64,000 nt of DNA from Omphalotus guepiniiformis (lineage: Eukaryota; Basidiomycota; Agaricomycetes; Agaricales; Omphalotaceae), in NCBI GenBank assembly GCA_028554645.1, contig JAQOOI010000018.1, forward strand, positions 1,364,001 through 1,428,000, in the 5' to 3' direction. This document shows, piece by piece, positions 1-36,552 of the stretch. Positions within the stretch are counted from its first letter, which is position 1, and each line of letters opens with the position of its first letter. A model generated the notes under the pieces. That model did no database searches, was not told where the DNA came from, and saw nothing but the letters and a program-made list of their open reading frames with translations. The translations under genes and the position numbers were made by a program.

Positions 1-921
1 TGCTTCGCCTATGCATATACCTGGCTCTGAAGACACAATATCTCAAAACCCGAAAGACGATATTATACATCAAAACATCCGGTTGATGACTCGTGATCTT
101 CTCTATGTTGCTGAGTTATCTCAAGCGATTGCCGATGAGATATAGGACGTGTGAAGACCTCTTTCCAGACCTTGCAAGAATTTTCCGTGGTGCGGGGTCA
201 AAAAATTATAGTAACGAGATCCTACATTGGTTGTTCTGTGTCAAGAAAGTATGGACAGCTGAATTTGCGTGAGTGATTCTGCTATTCAGACAAGTGGCTG
301 CTGATATTAAACATTAAAAAGGAATATAATGAGAGATAATATGCTCGTCAACGTTGCAGGTCTACCAGGTCATTTCATGGCAATTGACATGAATATTGAA
401 CATCTCATCGGATATCTGAAGGTATGAATATATGCTATATAATTTTGAGTTTTTCTTTAGTAATGGTTGACTACTAGCAACTGTTCGAGGCGAAAAGGTA
501 TCTACTCTACTTGGGAGCATATGGGCAACGTATCAGCAGCAACGAAAGACCTGATGGAGCTAAAGCGACATGTTTCACAAAGTATGAATATGGCTTATCA
601 AAGTCGTACACACAAGACTCCGGATACCTCTGCGCTAGTCTGGAGAATTGTTCACAATCTTCGTACAATCCAGGTGCAGAAGTTTTATGCTTATAGAGAA
701 AACAATGACAAGCAGAATTCCTTCCCGAACCTACTCCAGAAAGGCCGTGATCAACTCGCATCCTCCTCCCTGATAACATTCAATAAGAAGATTAATGCAT
801 TGAAGGCTGGCGTTGCAATTCCGGAGTGCGAAGATGATATAGACGACATACCTCCAGCCTCATTTTCAAACGTAACAGGAGATGAGTCTGCAGAACCAGA
901 TATGATGAATCTCAGATCTAG
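1..921 (+). pseudogene. DUF6589-type protein, C-terminal part, frameshifted copy
   Basis: This corresponds to the last three exons of the gene at 30596-33827: exon 3 to about 268, a short exon encoding the LPGHFMAIDMNIEHLIGY stretch, and the final exon ending at TAG 919-921. Compared with the intact copy it has two single-base losses near 137-150, one extra A near 492, one substitution near 876 and one lost T near 902, so it cannot be read through. Because nearly all changes are 1-nt length changes, they may be consensus errors rather than real decay. The N-terminal two thirds lies off the window. Confidence 0.8.
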
Positions 922-3388
922 TACATGCCGTCTGTGGGTACAACTACACCTCGACGATCTCGGATTGCCTTCTCCCTTTGCATGAATTCCTCTAGATCCT
1001 CGTCGTCAATGTCGCTTTCGCCACTTTCAATTGTTTCGGCTGACTTGATGACTTTGTCGCAATCTGCAATTTGCTCTTGTTCTTGCATGCGTGCATGTTC
1101 GGCCTTCCTCGCTTTCAAGTCGGCTCGCTTTCTTGTCGCTTCTTCAGCCTTTCGTCTCTTCTCATTTGCCTTGCGTTCAACATCCGCCAGCTTCCTTTTT
1201 TGCAGCGCTTCATCCTTTTCTTGATCAAAAAGAGTGTATCACCTGAAGAACCGCCTCTCCAAACTCATCTTCCCATTCGCTGGTCTGTTTGAGGGCAGAC
1301 GCTATATGCTTACTTGAGGACCAGCTCCCTGGAGGCAGTCGTACCAAAACGTCTCAATGTCTGGCATGGAGGAGAAGTCCGTCTTCTAGCACAAGGATGA
1401 GATCATCGCCTTCATGGATTTGTTTGCGCCATGCACATAAACGTTTCGTCAACTGTTCGCGATGTGTAATTGACCGTAGCTTTGAGTATCCTCGTTTAGA
1501 CTTTTCTGTTATATCATTGTCATATCGTTTGATTTCAATAGTTTCCCTGGAAGAAAATCTTCGAGGTTGAAACCAGTGTGACGATCACAACAAAACTGAA
1601 GCTTTTCTTGACTTGAAGTGCTACAAGAGGGAACATCAGTATCGCAAAATGCAACACAGAGACATACACACCATCGGCTGCCGTATCATTTAAATATTCC
1701 GCAATGAACTTTCTAAGGCATACCGAGGTACGCGTCATTCTTACTAACGAGTATGCGGCACGATCTTGAGCACTAGACTGACTAGTGAGTGTTGCAGTAC
1801 GAGGCCGGTCAGGATCGGTGTTCGCATTGGTCGTATATTCGTCGAGGGCTGATACTGTCATTCCAAGGGTCATAGAAAAGTACACATAGGCCAACTGCTT
1901 CAGGCTTCCTTAGCGCACGACCATACTCTTGTAGGAGCTGTGATAGGCTGCCTGCTGTTCCTGTTCCGCAAACAATATCAACGTCTGGAAAATCTATACC
2001 CTAATATGTAGTCAGAATAAAGAATCAATAGGGTATAAGAACTCGACGTACAGTAGACTCTGCCGAGGTGGTGACCAGCACTCTACGCTGCTTCCAACTG
2101 TCGTGAACGCATCATGTGTACGGTTTAGGTAGGTCTCGACATTTCACTATGATAATGTCTAATGACCCCTTGCCGTCGAAACTCGGCTGGAAGACAACTG
2201 TCAAGAAACTGTGATACAGCAATTGCCGACTTCATGTTCTCGCGAAAGATGAGAACACGCGGTTGAGTAGTTGGATGGAAATTGGCAAGATCAAGAAAGC
2301 AGCTATAGTTGTTGAGATTGTCGATACTGCCAATGACACAGTGAGTTGCGTACATAGTGTTTGGTCGATTGGATGTAAGACGAAGGATAAGATGATTAGA
2401 AGCCAATAGACTTGACTGTACCATCAAGAAGACGTGCTCTGGTACAGTGGCTGAGAGAAACATCCAAGGGGACACCAGGTAGCAACACCCGGATCTCATT
2501 AAGACGACTGTAAGCAGGGCGAAACGCGGGGAGAACCATAGCGGGAAGTGCCGTATGTGTAGATGAGATGAAACTCATCGCATATCACTTCTTGGACCCG
2601 TTTGCGGAATGTGCTATGCTTATGAAAGAGATGCCCGAAACGTGTGAGCTGGCCGATTGCTGTATCAACAAAGAATTGCTCGGGAGTGACTAGAAGAAGT
2701 GTGCTCTTCCAGGAGAGGTTCGGGAGATATCGTGTATCTCATTCTGAAAGTCATTAGATGAAGAAAATCAGCTCGAGTGTTATTGTACTTACCCTCCAGA
2801 AGTTCAAAATCGTGAGATGTATCAGCGTTAATGACCTGCGTGTTTATTCCGTACAGCTGCTGAATATGAAGAGCCTAAATATCAACTTAGCTTTTCAGCA
2901 AGTATCTTGAACGTTAGTTGAACGATACATACATGCGAATCCTGAAGCCGTTTTCAAGGGTGAAATTATGAGCGTGATCCCTGTCTGACAGTCTATCATC
3001 CTATTCAGGACCGAAGCCAGAGTCTTTCCAATACCAGTCCCTGCTATCACTAATACATCGCGGCTGCCTGCTGGTGACTTCAGAGAAAAGTGCCGCTTCC
3101 AGTTGGATTTGTTTTGGACATTGTGAACCTCGAGTAAGGTGCCAGCATGTCAGGATGTAATGAAAGCACTGAAATCGGCTAGCTTCCGGAAGCTCGTCCC
3201 AGGTATTCTCGAGGAATTTGAGAGTCCAGCGCAGGCATAGCAGACACAAGAACCTCAAGATGACGAAGACTGACAGCTTTATTCAAAGATATCCAAGCTT
3301 TGATTGTTGAGATTTCATTGTAGTAATACCATTCGACGATGTCCGGGACCCAGTCGTAACCGTACTGCTGCTCAGGATATCGCGACAT
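918..3388 (-). pseudogene. RecQ-like SF2 helicase, frameshifted copy
   Basis: This is the same gene as 33824-36287, from the start MSRYPEQQ (3388) to the stop shared with the convergent DUF6589 gene (918). The helicase reading frame is interrupted by roughly twenty one-base gains or losses, for example extra bases near 1226, 1343, 1846, 2466, 2531, 2764, 2806, 2952, 3085 and 3197 and losses near 1524, 1609, 2088, 2134 and 2693. Introns and splice sites match the intact copy. The error spectrum (homopolymer length, few substitutions) is more like unpolished long-read consensus than mutational decay, so the gene may be intact in the organism. Confidence 0.8.
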
Positions 3389-3462
3389 TTTTCAGTGATG
3401 ATTGCGAAGTTGGTTGTGCATGGCAACAGTAAAAAAAAGTAGACGCTCGATTGACATACACA

Positions 3463-3645
3463 TGACCTACCCTAAACAAGAAATCTCGCCCAAGAAGGCT
3501 ATTATTCTGACGTTTCTAGATTTTCTCTCGATCGTAGCGCGAGCCCTGCCAATTCAAACTCAGATTTTACAGGTCCCTCTATCGAGGTAGGGCGAAGCAC
3601 TTGACCAAAGTCAAACCTCATAAAGAGGGGCCGGTCACAGGTCTA
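3463..3645 (+). repeat. Right terminal inverted repeat of the truncated element copy
   Basis: Matches the right TIR of the complete element (36363-36543), including the inner conserved block and the outer end AGAGGGGCCGGTCACAGG followed by TCTA. One extra T is present in the run near 3562. Confidence 0.85.
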
Positions 3646-4715
3646 GGGTACGTACATCTTCCCTATGAACATCTGGCAATGGCAATGGCACGGAAACTCA
3701 AATGGCGTATAATTTAGGATCATTCCCCAGCCCGATTATTTGTGGGCGGCAATGGTAGATGGTGGTTGGAGTAAGTTGGATATTCCGACAGCAGTAGAAC
3801 AGATCAATGTGATTTTGAGGTTGTTGACGAAGCTGGATGGGTCGTTTGTTGCTGGGACGATATAGTGGTGAATGGGAGGATGGGTCAATGGTCTAGTGGT
3901 AGTAGTAGTAGTAAAATACACGGCTCTGCTTGAAGTGGCATCGTACGTGACGCGAAAAAAATCTCTTCAGATCCGCGCATGCCCGCAGAAAAGTGTGCAG
4001 CCGGCTGCGGTATATATCCAAGGGCGAAGCTGCGTAAGTTCCTCTGATGGCTGTGGTTTCGCAGCAGAGCGATTGCGAAAACAAGCGTCGAATGTCCCGG
4101 ATGTCACGCCCGGCATATAACGTAGCCCGGTAGGTTTGAACCGCCTGAGCTCAGTGGGTTTGCTGGTACGAATGCCTTGCTCAAAAAAGCTCACAAAGTC
4201 CTCACGTCGAACCTCTGGAATCTAGAAAACAGTATGTGAATACGAGGAATTACAATGTATTAAGAACTTCAAGTTAAGGCTGACCTCAGCGCCTCATCCC
4301 TTACGATATTCGACAACCCAGTTTGCCTCGCGTCTCTAAGTTCTAACGCCCAGAATGGATAGATCCGGGATATCGCATGTTTGGAATTCATCGGAAGGCG
4401 TTGGAGGGCGTTGGGAGGAGCTGGGAGGCCGACACAGTGAGACGTGACGCAAAAAGGGATTGGGAATGAGAAGGAGCGATGAAGAGGCAAGGGCATGACA
4501 TCGGAAACGCTCTATGAGGAGCGCGTACTCGACTAGTACTCGTCAGGTTATATGTGAGGTAAAGTGTAGTGAAGAGTGGGTGTGCGGGCAAAAGATAATG
4601 GATAACGAGTGATGGCAATGAGGAGTGGGAGGGAAGGCGAAAAGACGATGTTCATAGCCGAAGACCACTACAAAATCTGGTCCGCAACAATCACCACCCA
4701 CTATTTCCATCATCG
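3646..4715. other. Intergenic stretch, no gene recognised
   Basis: About 1.07 kb between the element end and the tRNA-Val-like gene. Only short open frames occur in all directions and none has a recognisable product. An AGT trinucleotide run lies near 3896-3912, next to an isolated tRNA A-box-like string for which I find no matching 3' half. Confidence 0.6.
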
Positions 4716-25435: not shown

Positions 25436-28400
25436 ATGTCCGACGGGCCCACAAGGTATTTGGTATATCATGCTTCAAATGAGGTACTGACGGTTTGACA
25501 CAGCGAAGACTTATGGGCTCAGGCATTGCAAAAAGTAAGCGACGACGACAAAAACGCGGTCAATTTCGACTTTACTGGCAACAAGCTTCAAACATTGATA
25601 GAACTTCGCTCTTTGACTGAACATGCTAGGGAGGAATGCACAAGAAAGAGGTGGAAATTCGTTCGTGGCGGTAAAACGGTCATCTTGCGCGATGTGTTCA
25701 GCAAAATCATCTTCTGGATCGATTTATTCAAGCGAATTGGTGACGCGACGACTAAGGCCAGCGGTGATACAAAGGCTGGCCTCGCTTGGCTTGGGGTACA
25801 ATTTCTTCTTCAGGTGCGTATATGCGGCTTGTTAGTGGAGTTTAAGTGATTTGCAGCTCAACAGATCTTTTCAAAATCTTGGTGTCAATAGATTGCGGTC
25901 AACGACATCCATAAATATGCTTTCGTCGTTGAAGGCGCGGAGCTCATATCGCGCTTGATTGACAGATATACAGTGTTTGAGACGCTGTATCTTCAAGATT
26001 CAGCAAGTCAGGCTGAAGAGCAACTACGGAACGCTTTAATTCGACTCTACACTGCTATCTTGAGATATCTGGCAAAAGCAAAGGCATACTACGAAAAGAA
26101 TACCATGAGTGCGTTGTCGAAGTTGTCTATGCTGTATAGTCCCTGTATTCATGGAGATCATTAGGCCGAATTTTAATCGGTGCTATCAACGCCCACGAAG
26201 ATTTTCAGATACTTCTTGACGCCATGGAGCAAGAGGAAATTCATGTTGATAGATGTGCAACCATAGTGGATGCGGAATGTATGTACCTTTTCTATATCAT
26301 GTAAGGAATACCTAACATGACATGTAGACCGCAACGCGCAGAACAAGAAACTTTTGAGTGTTCTTTCAGGTAAATGTTGGTTTCCATACTATGTGACGTG
26401 AAAATATCTTGACCGAGCATTTGAATTCAGAGCTAGAAGCAGGTCGGAAGGATCTTCTGCAAATCATAAAGGTTATGGATGGTCCAATCCGTCAAATGAG
26501 CAGCCAAGTCTCTGAAATCCAGGATCATCTTGAGCGTAAGTTCGTTCAAATATGCAGTTAACAATTGGTGTCAGCATCCCCTTTCTTGTCAGGTGGTAAA
26601 AGACTCGATATACTCCGCTGGATATCACTTCTCCCTTATCAAGAGTATCACGATCAACACAGACGGAGCGTGCTCGAAGGTACAGGCCAATGGCTCCTCA
26701 CCGACCCAGTGTATGCGAAGTGGAAGAACGACAGCACTTCTTCGCTTCTATGGCTGCATGGAATACCCGGCTGTGGCAAGAGTAAGCTCATGTAAGCCCG
26801 TTCATTCACACATTACATCATACGTTAAACGGCCTTTTCAGGGCTATTGTAACAGAAGAGCTACTTCAGGAACATAAGGAAGGGTGCAATTCACTTCCTG
26901 TATTCTTCTACTGCTCCCGGAACACAGCAGAACCAGAGCGTTCGCGCCCGGATGATGTTCTCGCCAGTATCGCTAGACAACTCGCGAGTCAGGGACTACC
27001 TGGCTCCCCGCTCTGCCAACCGACAATCGATCTTTACTTCGATGAGTGTGGTTCAAATTCGACAAGAATTAGCTCAGGAAAAGTTCTACCGTTGATTCAG
27101 GAGCTTATCGAATTCCGTTCCGTCACCTATATCATTATCGATGCTCTCGATGAATGTGACCCGGCAACGCGTTGCGATCTTCTAGATGTTCTCCATGACC
27201 TTATCCAAGACCCTCTCAATCTCGTCAAAGTGTTCGTTTCCAGTCGGGACGACCAAGATATAGTCGATACCCTGCACGATGCACCGTCTATCTCCGTCAC
27301 CTCGCAGCGAAATCGAGCTGACTTGACCGGTTTCGTTACCCGCGAGACAGAAAATCTTGTTTCGAAAAGACGGCTACTTCGTTACAGTGTGGAAAAGAAG
27401 GAGCTGAAAGCCCTGATCATTCATAAACTGATCGAAGGAGCCGATGGGATGTAGGTTCTCATTTGTTTTCAGTTTGCTTTTCTTACAAGCAAATCGCAGG
27501 TTTCTTTGGGTAACTCTCCAGCTGGAGGTATTGTGCAGTATGAAATTGGATGACGATATACGGGAGAGACTAGGACGACTTCCTTCGAAATTAATCCAGC
27601 TTTATTCGGAAATTCACGAGCAGCTGGTTCTCACACCAGCTACTCGCTTGGCTACAGAAACGATATTGCGATGGCTGCTCTGTGCAAGAGATACCCTCCA
27701 AACGGCCACATTCCTGGCAGCAATATCGTTGAATCCGAGGAGATGGCTAGGAGGTACTAAGCAACCTCAGCGATCGTTTACAAAGGAGCAGGTCCTGGAT
27801 CTTTGCTGCAATTTAGTCATCTACGATGATGAGTTGGATACCTTCCGGTTCGCTCATCTCTCCGTCCGGGAGTTCTTAGAGCAGCGACCTGAATATTCAA
27901 GTTCGTTATCCAATGTTTTGGCTGCAGAGACCTGCTTGGTCGAGATCATACATTCTGCAGGCACTCCGAGCACGACTCGTCACTTGAGCGCTACCTACAG
28001 TATCGACTCTTCACACCCGTTTCTACCAACCACAGAGGCTCTCCACAAATATGCAATATACTCCTGGCATAGGCACTGTACTTTTGCCGGTGCGGAACGT
28101 TCGAACAGACCGTTCGAGGAAACTTTCCGCTTCTTCCTATCAAATGATTCTGGTGACCGCTGTCCTTTGGATATTTGGGTTCAGTCTCGTCGACAAAAAA
28201 AGTTCGAAACAGCTGGTGGACATGAATTGGTTCGTCTCCTTGAAAACTATCCAGATACTGCGACAAGGTCCTTCTTTGTCGCTTGTGCGTATGGTTTTTG
28301 TGAAATCATTCACCTACGTATACCAGGGGTGTCCAATATGCTCAAGCAATCCGGCCTATTGCTTGCGGCAATGTTTGGGCAAGTCGAAGTTCTCCGAATA

Positions 28401-30116
28401 CTCCACGACGATCCAGAAATTGACATTACTGAAGACATGATCGCGGAAATTGTGCGACACTGGAGTAACGCTTCAGATGTTCTACCCGCAATCCTCGCTC
28501 AAAGTCAGTTGCGCATCACAGAGTTCATCTTTCACCAGGCTACGAACGCCACCAATGTAGAAACAATGCGAGTTCTGCTAGATTATGCCGGCGACACGAA
28601 GGAGGTTACAGACGGTGTGCTTCAGATGGCAGCATTTTGGGGAACACCAGAAATGATGGAGCTTCTGCTTGATCGACTCGAGGACGACAGGCGAATATCA
28701 GAAACGATGATGGGACTTGCAGCTAGCAACGACCTACAGGTTCTGAAAATCCTGTTGCACCATGGTGCGATGATTACAACGCATGTTGTGTTGAAGGCGG
28801 CACAACATCGTAGTCAGGGGACAGAAGTCTTAGAGCTTTTAGCAAGTCACGGCGCCGAAATCATCCCCACAGAAGAACTCATGAACGCTGCGGCCGCAGA
28901 AGGGAACGCCCCCACCATGTTGTTTTTATTAGCTAAGGGCGGGCATGTTACAGTGGAGGTCATGAAGTCTGCGGCAAATAATATTCGTTTTGGGACCAGC
29001 ATTCTTGAGGTTCTGTTTGACCATTGGAACGGAGAACTCTCAGACGACTCGGAGCAGGAACTTCTCAAAATTGCCGCCGGGAACATGTATGAGGGGGAGG
29101 GTCTAGTGCGTTTACTCTTCGAAAAACTTAAAGATCCACGAATCACGCCCAGCATCATGGAAGCTGGAGCTAAAAGTTCCTGGGTGGCGGAGGAGGTGAT
29201 CACACAGCTACTGCAACGGGGAGGGAGATCGCATGTGACAGCGGAAGTCATCATTGCTGCTGCACATAAGTCAGGTACATATGGTACAGAGGTCGTTTCA
29301 CTCTTGCTTCGCGAAGGAAGAAACATCGAGATCACAGAGGAGGTCCTGATCGCAGTCATAGGAAGCGTGGATTACAATGAATGCGTACAGGCTATGTTTG
29401 GCAGTGCCCCGGACGCTCTGATTACGCAAAACGTGCTCTTGGCAGCCTTTGGGAATTACAGAAGTGCGGTCGATATGACGAAGATGATTTTTGATAGAGT
29501 TGGGAAAGGCAATCTGAGAATCACATCAGATGTCGTCAAAGCGTGTGTCGAGAACAACAAAAGTGGTATGGATGCATTACCTAGTCTCGAGCAATTTGCA
29601 GGCCCGATTGAAGTTACGGATGAGACGGTGAAGTTTGCAGCTCAAGCTGGCAGCGTCAGGATGTTGCAGACTTTGCTGGGCCGTCTTCCTAACGCGAAGG
29701 TTTCGGAGGAATTGATGGTAGCTGCTGCTGCGAATTGGGACCCGGATGTTTTGATGTTCTTGTTGGACAAAGGTGGACTTGCATTCGTTACAGACGAAGT
29801 TTTGAAGGTTGTGGTGGCAGAAAGATACGACAACATGCTGCCTATTCTGCTTCGACGAGCAGACATTTCGAACATTTCGGAATCGGTAGCCAAAGCTGCG
29901 TTCACAGAATGCAAAAGATATGTTGCGCATCAAAGGCGGATCATAAAATACCTTCTCAGTCAGTCTCAAGCCACTGTTCAGATAACCGGAAATGTGGTGG
30001 CAGCGGCGGTGGACAACCAGAAGTATCTGGGACAGGATGTGATACATTTACTGCTGCAGTACTGCAAGGACAGAAACATACCGTTATCTGTAGACTATAG
30101 TGCTAGTGTACAATGA
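25436..30116 (+). CDS. STAND NTPase: helical N-terminal domain, NACHT, ankyrin-like repeats
   Basis: An NLR-like fungal protein of about 1,400 residues encoded by a chain of short exons and one long final exon. The start MSDGPTS is split by an intron after 20 nt. Residues about 30-150 (TVILRDVFSKIIFWIDLFKR) resemble the helical N-terminal domain (DUF7708-like) common before fungal NACHT domains. The NACHT part has LLWLHGIPGCGKSKLM (Walker A), YIIIDALDECDP (Walker B) and VFVSSRDD. A winged-helix-like region follows, with FRFAHLSVREFLEQRPEY. From about residue 700 to the end lie roughly 33-40-residue repeats of the ankyrin-like type, each starting ITEEV- or VTxEV- followed by AAA and a LLL helix. 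In this class, N-terminal effector domains and variable C-terminal repeats serve non-self recognition or programmed cell death; that role here is inferred. The TIR element begins 185 bp downstream. Confidence 0.87.
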
Positions 30117-30292: not shown

Positions 30293-30301
30293 GGGTGACA
30301 G
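30293..30301 (+). repeat. Left target-site duplication of the TIR element
   Basis: GGGTGACAG immediately precedes the left TIR and is repeated exactly after the right TIR (36544-36552). The preceding A also matches by chance or as a tenth base. Confidence 0.8.
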
Positions 30302-30477
30302 TAGGCCTGTGACCGGCCCCTCTAACTTTTACACGGTGTCGTGCTCTGCAGAACCTCGTTAGAGGGGCCTGTAAATCTGAGTTTGAATTGGCAGGGCTCA
30401 CGCTACGATCGAGAGAAAATCTAGAAACGTCAGAATAATAGCCTTCTTGGGCGAGATTTCTTGTTTAGGGTAGGCCA
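30302..30477 (+). repeat. Left terminal inverted repeat, composite
   Basis: Outer block 30302-30323 matches the right end; about 37 bp of unmatched sequence follows; then an inner block from 30361 to 30477 matches the right TIR almost perfectly. Within this end GGCCCCTCTAAC (30315-30326) and GTTAGAGGGGCC (30358-30369) form a perfect 12-bp inverted repeat with a 31-nt loop. Confidence 0.85.
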
Positions 30478-30595
30478 CGAACAACGTGGCGTAGCGTGGC
30501 ATGTACCGAATGATCGCAGTATTTCTTTTTTGCTACGTGCTACTGTTCTGCTCCGGTCCCATCCTCACTTGTTTGCTTTCCAACTGGAGTGAACG

Positions 30596-33500
30596 ATGAA
30601 GCGCGCTGAGAAAGTCTCAAAATCTGTCCCTGGAGCCTCTCGCTTTCGTTTTGGAGAACCAAGGCAGGAGTTCCAGGCCATTCCACTTGCTGACTCGACC
30701 AACCTGCTGCCTCAATGGGATCTTCAAACATCACGAAGAAATGGATCAATGACCTGCCAGGATGGATATATGAACACATTCTCTGCCAAATCTTCAGACA
30801 TTGGTTCCACAAGAGGCTATCCTGGTACACGAACTAGCTATCCTGGAGAGCTACCACCTATTTCTGTAACACAGCTCTCAGTTGGTTCAGAAGAGTCTCC
30901 TGTTGGATTTTCAATTCATGCAAACCATATACCAAGCACCCCCGTCAATTATCACGACTTACAACCTACAAAGCCTATGACGGAGACTACGTATGGGACC
31001 CCTTCAGTACTTGCCTCGAGTTCTTGCCAGAAGTATTTCGAGGACATGGTCAAGATACCTGGACATCTAGAGGATTGCGAAGGTGTGTGTAATCTCCTTA
31101 TTATCTTTTCTGGTCACTAAGCGCAGCATTATTAGACATGTTTTTAGGCTCTTCTTTCTCTTCTTCGACCGAAGCATCACCTTTTTCTCCACATATGTCC
31201 CTACCTGTTATACCATCTAGTGCTACTCCCTTCGGTAGACCATACCTGTACCCATCACCTAACGACAATACAATCCCTCGACTTCGTTCATCACGCCTAT
31301 CTGCAGAATCAAAGCTACGAAAGTTAACAAGTTCCTTGAAGAATTACAGACTCTCTCCTCTTCAGTTTGTGAACATGCTCCTCACCACGTCGGCTCCAGA
31401 CCTGGTACCGTATGCCAACGAACTGGTTTCGTCACCATCCAATCATCTAATTGATTTCCTCAACATTATTTGGGGTCTCGATAAGGGCCGAGAACTCATA
31501 TTGGAGTGGATGCGTCCCCATGCTGAGAAGATGGTGTGCGATACAGTTTACGAAGAATTTGATGGCTCAAAGCAAGCTCATTACATGAGGGTTGCAGATG
31601 TAACAGCTGAGTATACTCAAGAGTGGAATCTATCAGGATTCATGCGCCAAAAGCCACGGCCGGTTTTTGATAGAATACTCATGGCGGCTTCTCAAACTCG
31701 TATTGCAGCAGGGAAAAACAAGATTAAAAATGGTCAAATTGTAAGATTTTTGACTCTTCTTAATGCAGTTGCTAAAACATGACCGTAACCAGTGCCGAGA
31801 TATCATTACTGCCCAAATTTATCAGTTACGCTCTCAAAATGCCTGCAGGACCCAGCTTGGCCTTGGTGCTTTCATGTGGGCAACTGGTGCATCACGCATG
31901 GCACTCGACTTTCTTGCGCAGTGCCATCTTGTCCCGTCATATCCATCGACTCTTACCATGCTTGAATCTCTCGGCAATAGCTCCCTGAATCGTGCTCGTA
32001 TTCTCATCAAATCAAGGCCCCATGGTTTTGGATATGATAACTATAATAGCTCATACTCAACGTCAGTTGAACAACGACCTGGCGCACCATGCAAAGTGCA
32101 GTCTGGAACTTTCGGGGTTATTTATGCACTTCGTAATGCCAACTTCGAGGATATGGCCATTGAACCGTTGATTGCGAATCTTCGAAACTCGTCTGAACTC
32201 ACTTTTCCCAATATTTGTGCTAGTCGAGAAACATCTCGATGCATTCAACATCAATTTCTTACCCATATAATCCTCACTCTCGCAGATCACCATGTTGACT
32301 TCGACTCGTATCGTCACAGACTCAAATTCCTCAAGCGCCGTGCTGTTATTAATCCTCACGAAAAGACTGAATTTTATACCCTGCGTCTCTCTTCAATAGA
32401 AGAAGCATCTATCAAGGGAAATCTCCGCTACCATGAAGATGTATATCTTACCCAACTTCAGCAAGACGACTCTCCGGATTCAAGACTTGTCACGCTTGCC
32501 ACACCATTGTATGGTGATCTCCATACACTCAAATGTGTTCGAGGATGTGTTCAAGTACGTCAAGGAGACACAGATCACTGGACCCGCCGAGAAGTCTTTC
32601 AACTAGGGATCGGACTCTTTCACTTGCTTATGAATCTTATCTGGGCATTGCTCAACACATACCGTGGCCGTGTTGAACACATAGGGAGCCTTTCTTATTT
32701 CTTTGTATTACTCGACAAGCGTAGGCTTGATGGAGAAAAACCAGATTTCCACACGCTTTTCACGGCACTGCAGCAAGTTCTCGATGGTCTTCTCCTCCAT
32801 GCATGGGAACAGGAATGTGGTTTCAAGACACTCGATGAATTTGCAAAGTCAAAGCCAACCCCAGATAGGTTAAAGGTCCTCGCAACTCAGATTCTCAAGA
32901 AATATGCTTCGCCTATGCATATACCTGGCTCTGAAGACACAATATCTCAAAACCCGAAAGACGATATTATACATCAAAACATCCGGTTGATGACTCGTGA
33001 TCTTCTCTATGTTGCTGAGTTATCTCAAGCGATTGCCGATGGAGATATAGGACGTGTTGAAGACCTCTTTCCAGACCTTGCAAGAATTTTCCGTGGTGCG
33101 GGGTCAAAAAATTATAGTAACGAGATCCTACATTGGTTGTTCTGTGTCAAGAAAGTATGGACAGCTGAATTTGCGTGAGTGATTCTGCTATTCAGACAAG
33201 TGGCTGCTGATATTAAACATTAAAAAGGAATATAATGAGAGATAATATGCTCGTCAACGTTGCAGGTCTACCAGGTCATTTCATGGCAATTGACATGAAT
33301 ATTGAACATCTCATCGGATATCTGAAGGTATGAATATATGCTATATAATTTTGAGTTTTTCTTTAGTAATGGTTGACTACTAGCAACTGTTCGAGGCGAA
33401 AGGTATCTACTCTACTTGGGAGCATATGGGCAACGTATCAGCAGCAACGAAAGACCTGATGGAGCTAAAGCGACATGTTTCACAAAGTATGAATATGGCT

Positions 33501-33827
33501 TATCAAAGTCGTACACACAAGACTCCGGATACCTCTGCGCTAGTCTGGAGAATTGTTCACAATCTTCGTACAATCCAGGTGCAGAAGTTTTATGCTTATA
33601 GAGAAAACAATGACAAGCAGAATTCCTTCCCGAACCTACTCCAGAAAGGCCGTGATCAACTCGCATCCTCCTCCCTGATAACATTCAATAAGAAGATTAA
33701 TGCATTGAAGGCTGGCGTTGCAATTCCGGAGTGCGAAGATGATATAGACGACATACCTCCAGCCTCATTTTCAAACGTAAAAGGAGATGAGTCTGCAGAA
33801 CCAGATATTGATGAATCTCAGATCTAG
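30596..33827 (+). CDS. DUF6589-type protein, candidate transposase of the TIR element
   Basis: Exons 30596-31082, 31136-31740, 31769-33174, 33240-33327 and 33384-33827 give one frame of 1009 residues. The N-terminal 250 residues are Ser/Pro-rich. The rest follows the DUF6589 pattern I know from agaricomycete genomes: TPLYGDLHTLKCVRGC, then FQLGIGLFHLLMNLIWALLN, then IFRGAGSKNYSNEILHWLF, DNMLVNVAGLPGHFMAID with MNIEHLIGYLK, and LVWRIVHNLRTIQ with SSLITFNKKINALKAG. The fourth exon is placed by the DNMLVN frame, which fixes the acceptor at 33238-33239. The Asp of GDLHT and the acidic residues of AIDMNIEH could be catalytic in an RNase H-like fold, but that is inference. Its stop overlaps the helicase stop by two bases. 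A recombinase role is suggested by residence in a TIR element, not by a known assay. Confidence 0.85.
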
Positions 33828-36287
33828 TACATGCCGTCTGTGGGTACAACTACACCTCGACGATCTCGGATTGCCTTCTCCCTTTGCATGAATTCCTCTA
33901 GATCCTCGTCGTCAATGTCGCTTTCGCCACTTTCAATTGTTTCGGCTGACTTGATGACTTTGTCGCAATCTGCAATTTGCTCTTGTTCTTGCATGCGTGC
34001 ATGTTCGGCCTTCCTCGCTTTCAAGTCGGCTCGCTTTCTTGTCGCTTCTTCAGCCTTTCGTCTCTTCTCATTTGCCTTGCGTTCAACATCCGCCAGCTTC
34101 CTTTTTTGCAGCGCTTCATCCTTTTCTTGATCAAAAGAGTGTATCACCTGAAGAACCGCCTCTCCAAACTCATCTTCCCATTCGCTGGTCTGTTTGAGGG
34201 CAGACGCTATATGCTTACTTGAGGACCAGCTCCCTGGAGGCAGTCGTACCAACGTCTCAATGTCTGGCATGGAGAGAATGTCGTCTTCTAGCACAAGGAT
34301 GAGATCATCGCCTTCATGGATTTGTTTGCGCCATGCACATAAACGTTTCGTCAACTGTTCGCGATGTGTAATTGACCGTAGCTTTGAGTATCCTCGTTTA
34401 GACTTTTCTGTTATATCATTGTCAATATCGTTTGATTTCAATAGTTTCCCTGGAAGAAAATCTTCGAGGTTGAAACCAGTGTGACGATCACAACAAAACT
34501 GAAGCTTTTCTTTGACTTGAAGTGCTACAAGAGGGAACATCAGTATCGCAAAATGCAACACAGAGACATACACACCATCGGCTGCCGTATCATTTAAATA
34601 TTCCGCAATGAACTTTCTAAGGCATACCGAGGTACGCGTCATTCTTACTAACGAGTATGCGGCACGATCTTGAGCACTAGACTGACTAGTGAGTGTTGCA
34701 GTACGAGGCCGGTCAGGATCGGTGTTCGCATTGGTCGTATATTCGTCGAGGCTGATACTGTCATTCCAAGGGTCATAGAAAAGTACACATAGGCCAACTG
34801 CTTCAGGCTTCCTTAGCGCACGACCATACTCTTGTATGAGCTGTGATAGGCTGCCTGCTGTTCCTGTTCCGCAAACAATATCAACGTCTGGAAAATCTAT
34901 ACCCTAATATGTAGTCAGAATAAAGAATCAATAGGGTATAAGAACTCGACGTACAGTAGACTCTGCCGAGGTGGTGACCAGCACTCTACAGCTGCTTCCA
35001 ACTGTCGTGAACGCATCATGTGTACGGTTTAGGTAGGTCTTCGACATTTCACTATGATAATGTCTAATGACCCCTTGCCGTCGAAACTCGGCTGGAAGAC
35101 AACTGTCAAGAAACTGTGATACAGCAATTGCCGACTTCATGTTCTCGCGAAAGATGAGAACACGCGGTTGAGTAGTTGGATGGAAATTGGCAAGATCAAG
35201 AAAGCAGCTATAGTTGTTGAGATTGTCGATACTGCCAATGACACAGTGAGTTGCGTACATAGTGTTTGGTCGATTGGATGTAAGACGAAGGATAAGATGA
35301 TTAGAAGCCAATAGACTTGACTGTACCATCAAGAAGACGTGCTCTGGTACAGTGGCTGAGAGAAACATCCAAGGGACACCAGGTAGCAACACCCGGATCT
35401 CATTAAGACGACTGTAAGCAGGGCGAAACGCGGGGAGACCATAGCGGGAAGTGCCGTATGTGTAGATGAGATGAAACTCATCGCATATCACTTCTTGGAC
35501 CCGTTTGCGGAATGTGCTATGCTTATGAAAGAGATGCCCGAAACGTGTGAGCTGGCCGATTGCTGTATCAACAAAGAATTGCTCGGGAGTGACTAGAAGA
35601 AGTTGTGCTCTTCCAGGAGAGGTTCGGGAGATATCGTGTATCTCATTCTGAAAGTCATTAGATGAAGAAATCAGCTCGAGTGTTATTGTACTTACCCTCC
35701 AGAAGTTCAAATCGTGAGATGTATCAGCGTTAATGACCTGCGTGTTTATTCCGTACAGCTGCTGAATATGAAGAGCCTAAATATCAACTTAGCTTTTCAG
35801 CAAGTATCTTGAACGTTAGTTGAACGATACATACATGCGAATCCTGAAGCCGTTTCAAGGGTGAAATTATGAGCGTGATCCCTGTCTGACAGTCTATCAT
35901 CCTATTCAGGACCGAAGCCAGAGTCTTTCCAATACCAGTCCCTGCTATCACTAATACATCGCGGCTGCCTGCTGGTGACTTCAGAGAAAGTGCCGCTTCC
36001 AGTTGGATTTGTTTTGGACATTGTGAACCTCGAGTAAGGTGCCAGCATGTCAGGATGTAATGAAAGCACTGAAATCGGCTAGCTTCCGGAAGCTCGTCCA
36101 GGTATTCTCGAGGAATTTGAGAGTCCAGCGCAGGCATAGCAGACACAAGAACCTCAAGATGACGAAGACTGACAGCTTTATTCAAAGATATCCAAGCTTT
36201 GATTGTTGAGATTTCATTGTAGTAATACCATTCGACGATGTCCGGGACCCAGTCGTAACCGTACTGCTGCTCAGGATATCGCGACAT
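33824..36287 (-). CDS. RecQ-like SF2 DNA helicase of the TIR element
   Basis: About 770 residues in four exons (introns near 35777-35834, 35653-35696 and 34904-34954). Helicase motifs occur in order: I VLVIAGTGIGKTLAS, Ia LIISPLKRLQDS, II QEVICDEFHLIYTYG (DEFH instead of the usual DEAH/DEVH), III MFLSATVPEHV, IV RVLIFREN, V VLVTTSAESTGIDFPDVDIV and VI QLIQEYGRALRKPEA. A strongly charged coiled-coil-like tail (KRKLADVERKANEKRRKAEE) precedes an acidic C-terminus. A canonical RecQ zinc-binding domain is not obvious. It starts near the right TIR and ends at the shared CTAG, so it belongs to the element. An intact frame indicates recent activity. Possible roles are DNA unwinding during excision or copying, or a relation to telomere-linked RecQ helicases of fungi. 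Confidence 0.87.
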
Positions 36288-36362
36288 TTTTCAGTGATGA
36301 TTGCGAAGTTGGTTGTGCATGGCAACAGTAAAAAAAAGTAGACGCTCGATTGACATACACAT

Positions 36363-36543
36363 GACCTACCCTAAACAAGAAATCTCGCCCAAGAAGGCTA
36401 TTATTCTGACGTTTCTAGATTTTCTCTCGATCGTAGCGCGAGCCCTGCCAATTCAAACTCAGATTTACAGGTCCCTCTATCGAGGTAGGGCGAAGCACTT
36501 GACCAAAGTCAAACCTCATAAAGAGGGGCCGGTCACAGGTCTA
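36363..36543 (-). repeat. Right terminal inverted repeat, composite
   Basis: Reverse complement of the left TIR: outer block 36522-36543 and inner block 36363-36478, separated by about 43 bp unlike the left end. The subterminal fold-back is imperfect here (AGAGGGACC against GGCCCCTCT). Confidence 0.85.
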
Positions 36544-36552
36544 GGGTGACAG
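36544..36552 (+). repeat. Right target-site duplication of the TIR element
   Basis: GGGTGACAG, identical to 30293-30301. Confidence 0.8.

Follow-up and report, generated by a model that had tools for sequence, protein, structure and literature searches.

A 64,000-nucleotide stretch of contig C18 of Omphalotus guepiniiformis (JAQOOI010000018.1, positions 1364001-1428000; hereafter the window), from a host genome of 42.5 Mb in 80 contigs, contains a complete two-gene transposon that we assign, with high confidence, to the AcademH lineage of the Academ superfamily of DNA transposons as a probably autonomous, cut-and-paste element. Its two genes, enclosed by terminal inverted repeats (TIRs) and an exact 9-base-pair (bp) target site duplication (TSD), encode a protein of the DUF6589 family, which to judge from its sequence is probably the transposase of the element and of the DDE type, and a RecQ-like helicase. 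The AcademH group was reportedly defined by Kojima in 2020; new here is the naming of DUF6589 as its probable transposase.

Two copies of a bounded element with different target site duplications

Copy 1 of the element (TAG...CTA; 6,242 bp) occupies positions 30302..36543 of the window, no strand being assigned to the element or to its TSD. Its inverted arms, located mechanically, form a left TIR of 176 bp (30302..30477, forward strand) and a right TIR of 182 bp (36362..36543, reverse strand) that are 86.8% alike; the ends start TAGGCCTGTGACCGGCCCCTCT and TAGACCTGTGACCGGCCCCTCT, and their outermost 22 bp contain a single difference (TAGGCC.../TAGACC...). Directly outside the TIRs stands the same 9-bp word, GGGTGACAG, at 30293..30301 on the left and, exactly repeated, at 36544..36552 on the right, a match that by simple arithmetic (4^-9) would arise by chance at a fixed boundary with a probability of ~4e-6. 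A first-pass annotation, made from the letters of the window, had proposed a two-gene TIR element with an exact 9-bp flanking repeat, and both features are confirmed, the inverted ends of ~180 bp bounding both genes.

The right part of a second copy fills positions 1..3645 of the window (no strand assigned), and the full copy lies at C18:1361395-1367645, separated from copy 1 by 33 kb on the same contig. Its exact 9-bp TSD, GGGTACGTA (3646-3654), is different from that of copy 1. Aligned over 6,271 columns, the copies differ by 8 mismatches and 41 gap positions (99.2% identity). They share their outer bases, and their flanks do not align, the query having extended 300 bp beyond copy 1 at either end. 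This second copy, too, had been noticed at first pass from its identical end base and different flank, and the contig holds it complete and with a TSD of its own; helicase matches adjoin its DUF6589 gene. Since the differences between the copies are mostly single-base insertions or deletions (indels) within short runs, assembly error is suggested, and gene calls in copy 2 would be falsely broken; the indels are probably errors of long-read assembly and not signs of age.

DUF6589 is a probable transposase

In copy 1 the DUF6589 gene lies on the forward strand at 30596..33827 (exons 30596-31082, ~31127-31740, 31793-33174, 33228-33327 and 33384-33827) and the helicase gene on the reverse strand at 33824..36287, starting from an ATG at 36287; the two genes meet tail to tail, the 3' end of the helicase gene overlapping the DUF6589 stop by 4 bp. 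After removal of four GT-AG introns the DUF6589 frame is open from the ATG at 30596 to the stop at 33825-33827 and encodes ~1,005 amino acids (aa); the helicase gene, with 2-3 introns and ambiguous splice choices, encodes ~775-790 aa. Both open models were built with GT-AG introns only and without altering a base, which bears out the earlier description of the two genes of this copy as intact, and several introns allow more than one choice of splice site, most of all the first intron of the DUF6589 gene, where several splice choices leave the frame open.

A Pfam search with the spliced DUF6589 protein returned PF20231 over almost its whole profile (E=1e-96, profile positions 10-410 of 410) and no family besides DUF6589 at E<=0.1, neither a Mutator-like element (MULE) transposase nor any other. 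The first-pass annotation had likewise seen no classical transposase and no Helitron Rep protein, and the Pfam search contains no such match. Within a 1008-aa model of the protein the candidate catalytic residues are D449 (YDNYN), D609 (GDLHT) and E854 (IEHLI), and the succession [YW]DNxN, then GD[QL], then EH is present in all five DUF6589 genes inspected, namely the window copy and the genes of relatives A, B, C and D described below. We infer that these conserved residues form a D/D/E catalytic set; because a D..D..E-like set is kept in all five genes, DUF6589 is a probable transposase with a putative catalytic role, and the earlier proposal that it is the recombinase appears likely to be right. 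Downstream of D609 the window protein also carries two C/DxxH-like words, which are unmatched in A and B after the second D, within an alignment that ends before the E-bearing exon. Alignment scans of viral contigs and prokaryote genome contigs returned no relatives, and the name DUF6589 was absent from the literature searched.

The second gene encodes a RecQ-like helicase

The helicase protein contains the words GTGIGKT, DEFH, SAT, RGIDFPD and QEYGRALR, which we take to be motifs of superfamily 2 (SF2) helicases, and matches the Pfam families DEAD and Helicase_C, both above cut-off. A weak Smr match (E 0.03, below cut-off) falls inside the Helicase_C stretch, and no nuclease family scored above the Pfam cut-off in either the DUF6589 or the helicase protein. 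Against the PDB the helicase matched 22 sequences at E<=0.001, 19 of them named RecQ, RecQ1, Bloom or RecQ5 and the remaining three named only 'ATP-dependent DNA helicase'; in NCBIfam it matched TIGR00614 (recQ_fam), below the curated cut-off. The label 'RecQ-like' that the gene had been given at first pass is upheld by the names of these PDB matches.

Related two-gene elements in the host genome

When the host genome was searched with a DUF6589 profile, 16 matches were obtained, which we group into seven loci: copies 1 and 2, relative A (C18), relative B (C73), relatives C and D (both C74) and a fragment, E (C16). Relative A (C18:1166972-1173566) has the left end TAGGCTCG, the right end TAGACTCG and the exact 9-bp TSD CTGCTTTCT; relative B (C73:866997-873762) has the left end TAGGCTCT, the right end TAGACTCG and the exact 9-bp TSD AGCCTTTTC; and relative C (C74:587954-594330) has TAGACTCG at both ends and the exact 9-bp TSD CGGAAGGGT. 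The ends of all three read TAGRCTC. Relative D (C74, about 951000-958100) holds both a DUF6589 and a helicase gene. Exact 9-bp TSDs thus flank each of the five two-gene elements that have both ends (copies 1 and 2, A, B and C). According to the first-pass annotation, copies of the gene pair without inverted termini or target duplications would have spoken against a mobile unit; in A, B and C both features are present.

A helicase match stands beside DUF6589 in each of the four other loci larger than a fragment (A, B, C and D), and a helicase gene accompanies all six non-fragment DUF6589 genes. The orientation of the pair is variable: the genes are convergent (tail to tail) in the window family and in C, and divergent (head to head) in A, B and D. 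With both orders occurring, it is the gene pair that is kept and not its orientation.

Terminal structure and short relatives

The left TIR of copy 1 contains a self-complementary pair, GGCCCCTCTAAC...GTTAGAGGGGCC, within its outer ~70 bases. We folded eight terminal 100-base stretches, from the window element and from A, B and C, as single strands and compared them with shuffled sequences: seven of the eight folded better than the shuffle mean (z -2.1 to -9.6), with 9 of 200 shuffles folding equally well for the window element's right terminus; the eighth, an end of C, folded no better than shuffles (z 0.29). A self-complementary stretch is therefore common at these ends, not universal, and could provide paired binding sites for the transposase inside the terminus.

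When the 22-bp end of the window element was searched genome-wide with up to 3 mismatches, 11 places matched and none did in a reversed control. Four of these are known ends, and the seven others, with 1-3 mismatches (C18:1002567, C16:936541, C31:70325, C58:86786, C65:61671, C65:2882012 and C78:1393085), are possibly short relatives. The A-type end pattern, allowed up to 2 mismatches, had a high background (87 places compared with 53 in the reversed control), and from this list we picked eight short elements (L048-L055) whose ends pair ~600 bp apart. Exact 9-bp TSDs flank six of the eight, a proportion that, given the selection by end pairing, is not a count over all copies; the elements are gene-less, and the same rule of ends and duplication therefore serves them. 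They fall into two groups, one of three members (95.7-97.4% alike) and one of five (98.5-99.5%), with ~81% between the groups, and their ends are 72-88% like the corresponding ends of A over stretches of at least 100 bp, cross-end matches being weaker. The high identity among the short relatives suggests recent movement in the host genome.

Two further observations concern the surroundings. At C20:2575233-2575349 a sequence matches the interior of one end of the window element at 73%, and no transposase or helicase gene was recognised in the surrounding 10 kb. Close by on the left of the copy 1 insertion, an open frame of 894 aa (27432-30116) has repeats that look ankyrin-like by eye.

Placement in the Academ superfamily

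In the available text of PMC10045372, AcademH TSDs are 9 or 10 bp and AcademX TSDs 3 or 4 bp, a difference related there to the presence of a helicase versus a nuclease. Excerpts of PMC10799480 describe AcademH as low-copy in Basidiomycota, Ascomycota and Mucoromycota, and the accessible portion of PMC6416283 states that most fungal Academ copies hold recognizable domains, for example a DEAD/DEAH helicase or recQ_fam. The window element resembles AcademH, as so described, in being a helicase-carrying DNA transposon with 9 (or 10)-bp TSDs, a low copy number and a fungal host, and resembles fungal Academ in the DEAD/recQ_fam kind of its helicase; as TSD length, helicase kind, host and copy number all match these descriptions, we place the element in AcademH. 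A comparison by published description, and not by transposase sequence, brought out no feature in which the two differ. The element has the 9-bp TSD and the encoded helicase, together with TIRs bounding both genes, a trait that we took as general for such transposons and not from the wording used for AcademH. AcademX, of the same superfamily, differs in its 3 or 4-bp TSDs and its nuclease from the 9 bp and helicase found here (PMC10045372, in the text available). The supposition at first pass that the element represents a poorly described group did not hold, helicase-carrying Academ elements with 9-10-bp TSDs being documented as AcademH in the parts of PMC10045372 and PMC10799480 at hand, and DEAD and recQ_fam domains of fungal Academ copies in that of PMC6416283. 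A literature search returned no paper on a TIR transposon with a RecQ helicase from Agaricomycetes.

Several observations weigh against this assignment or against the transposase role of DUF6589. The DUF6589 protein had no sequence match in the PDB, either in single-sequence or in profile searches, and an AlphaFold model of one DUF6589 exon, computed with no relatives in the input, reached a predicted local distance difference test (pLDDT) score of 35.7. In the assembly the gene frames of copy 2 are interrupted, relative D has lost one terminus, and at locus E a piece of DUF6589 stands without any helicase match in the 10-kb stretch of that locus. Two of the eight short relatives are without a TSD; the sequence to the left of L048 is like the interior of an end from another element, so that L048 looks nested or rearranged, and L055 has one altered end. 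Finally, the placement in AcademH is founded on traits given in published descriptions.

We consider it unlikely that DUF6589 marks a separate, undescribed superfamily outside Academ, in which a RecQ-like helicase and a TSD of 9 bp would have been gained independently, transposase and helicase working together to produce the duplications in two opposite gene arrangements. Such an origin would agree with an Academ link drawn from traits instead of transposase sequences, and with the silence of the searched literature, where DUF6589 is unnamed and the link accordingly not stated; the helicase type, TSD length, fungal host and low copy number nevertheless fit what is described of AcademH and fungal Academ in the source passages cited above.

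KolobokH, the RecQ-carrying kind of Kolobok transposon, is a very improbable identity for the element. The likeness is that of a fungal transposon carrying RecQ: portions of PMC9587614 present KolobokH as a fungi-only Kolobok with the RecQ helicase downstream of the transposase domain, mention one rhodophyte Kolobok with RecQ on the complementary strand, and ascribe a C/DxxH motif to Kolobok, hAT, P, MuDR and Dada, to which the two C/DxxH-like words after D609 might be compared. Those words are unmatched in A and B within the aligned part, which ends before the E exon, only DUF6589 was matched in Pfam at E<=0.1, and the window helicase has a gene of its own on the other strand. The target duplication of Kolobok is TTAA, whereas the TSDs here are all of 9 bp, with no TTAA among them.

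Typical MULEs have long TIRs and 9-bp TSDs, and a MULE that had acquired an extra helicase would share these features, along with the two C/DxxH-like words, with the window element. We nevertheless give this reading hardly any weight: searched against Pfam at E<=0.1, the spliced DUF6589 protein matched no transposase family, whether of MULEs or of other elements, the C/DxxH words have no counterparts in the aligned part of A and B, which ends before the E exon, and a helicase partner fits Academ (PMC10045372 and PMC6416283, in the passages available). Just as improbable is an artefact in which the inverted ends are merely flanks of a duplicated host gene pair, as the proximity of copies 1 and 2 (33 kb, one contig) might suggest, since these copies have the same end bases, non-aligning flanks and different exact TSDs, and bounded two-gene elements and short relatives elsewhere show the same behaviour.

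Two other classes were rejected outright: Helitrons, given the presence of TIRs and TSDs and the absence of a Rep match in Pfam, and KDZ/Zisupton, given the 8-bp TSDs of Zisupton in the text available from PMC12730594 and the absence of such a match in Pfam. RecQ helicases also occur in fungal subtelomeric repeated DNA (PMC4522978, in the part available), a likewise RecQ-like component of repeated DNA; the window helicase differs in lying inside a TIR element with TSDs and not at contig ends.

Proposed mechanism and significance

If the window element is an AcademH transposon, the DUF6589 protein would bind the ~180-bp inverted ends and pair them, cut at TAG/CTA and join the element to its target with a 9-bp stagger, and repair of the staggered target would yield the 9-bp duplication. 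The transposase would presumably adopt an RNase H fold, the movement would be of the cut-and-paste rather than the copying kind, and the element may have been active recently. The RecQ-like helicase would play an accessory part, probably by opening the duplex either at the ends or in gap repair after excision.

Why a cut-and-paste transposon should carry a helicase at all is a question for which two near-identical bounded copies, one with both genes open, and a set of short relatives, all in one genome, provide a starting set. Our analysis also suggests that 'probable transposase' would be a suitable annotation for the Pfam family DUF6589, so that in fungal genomes its members are not taken for host genes without a known function.
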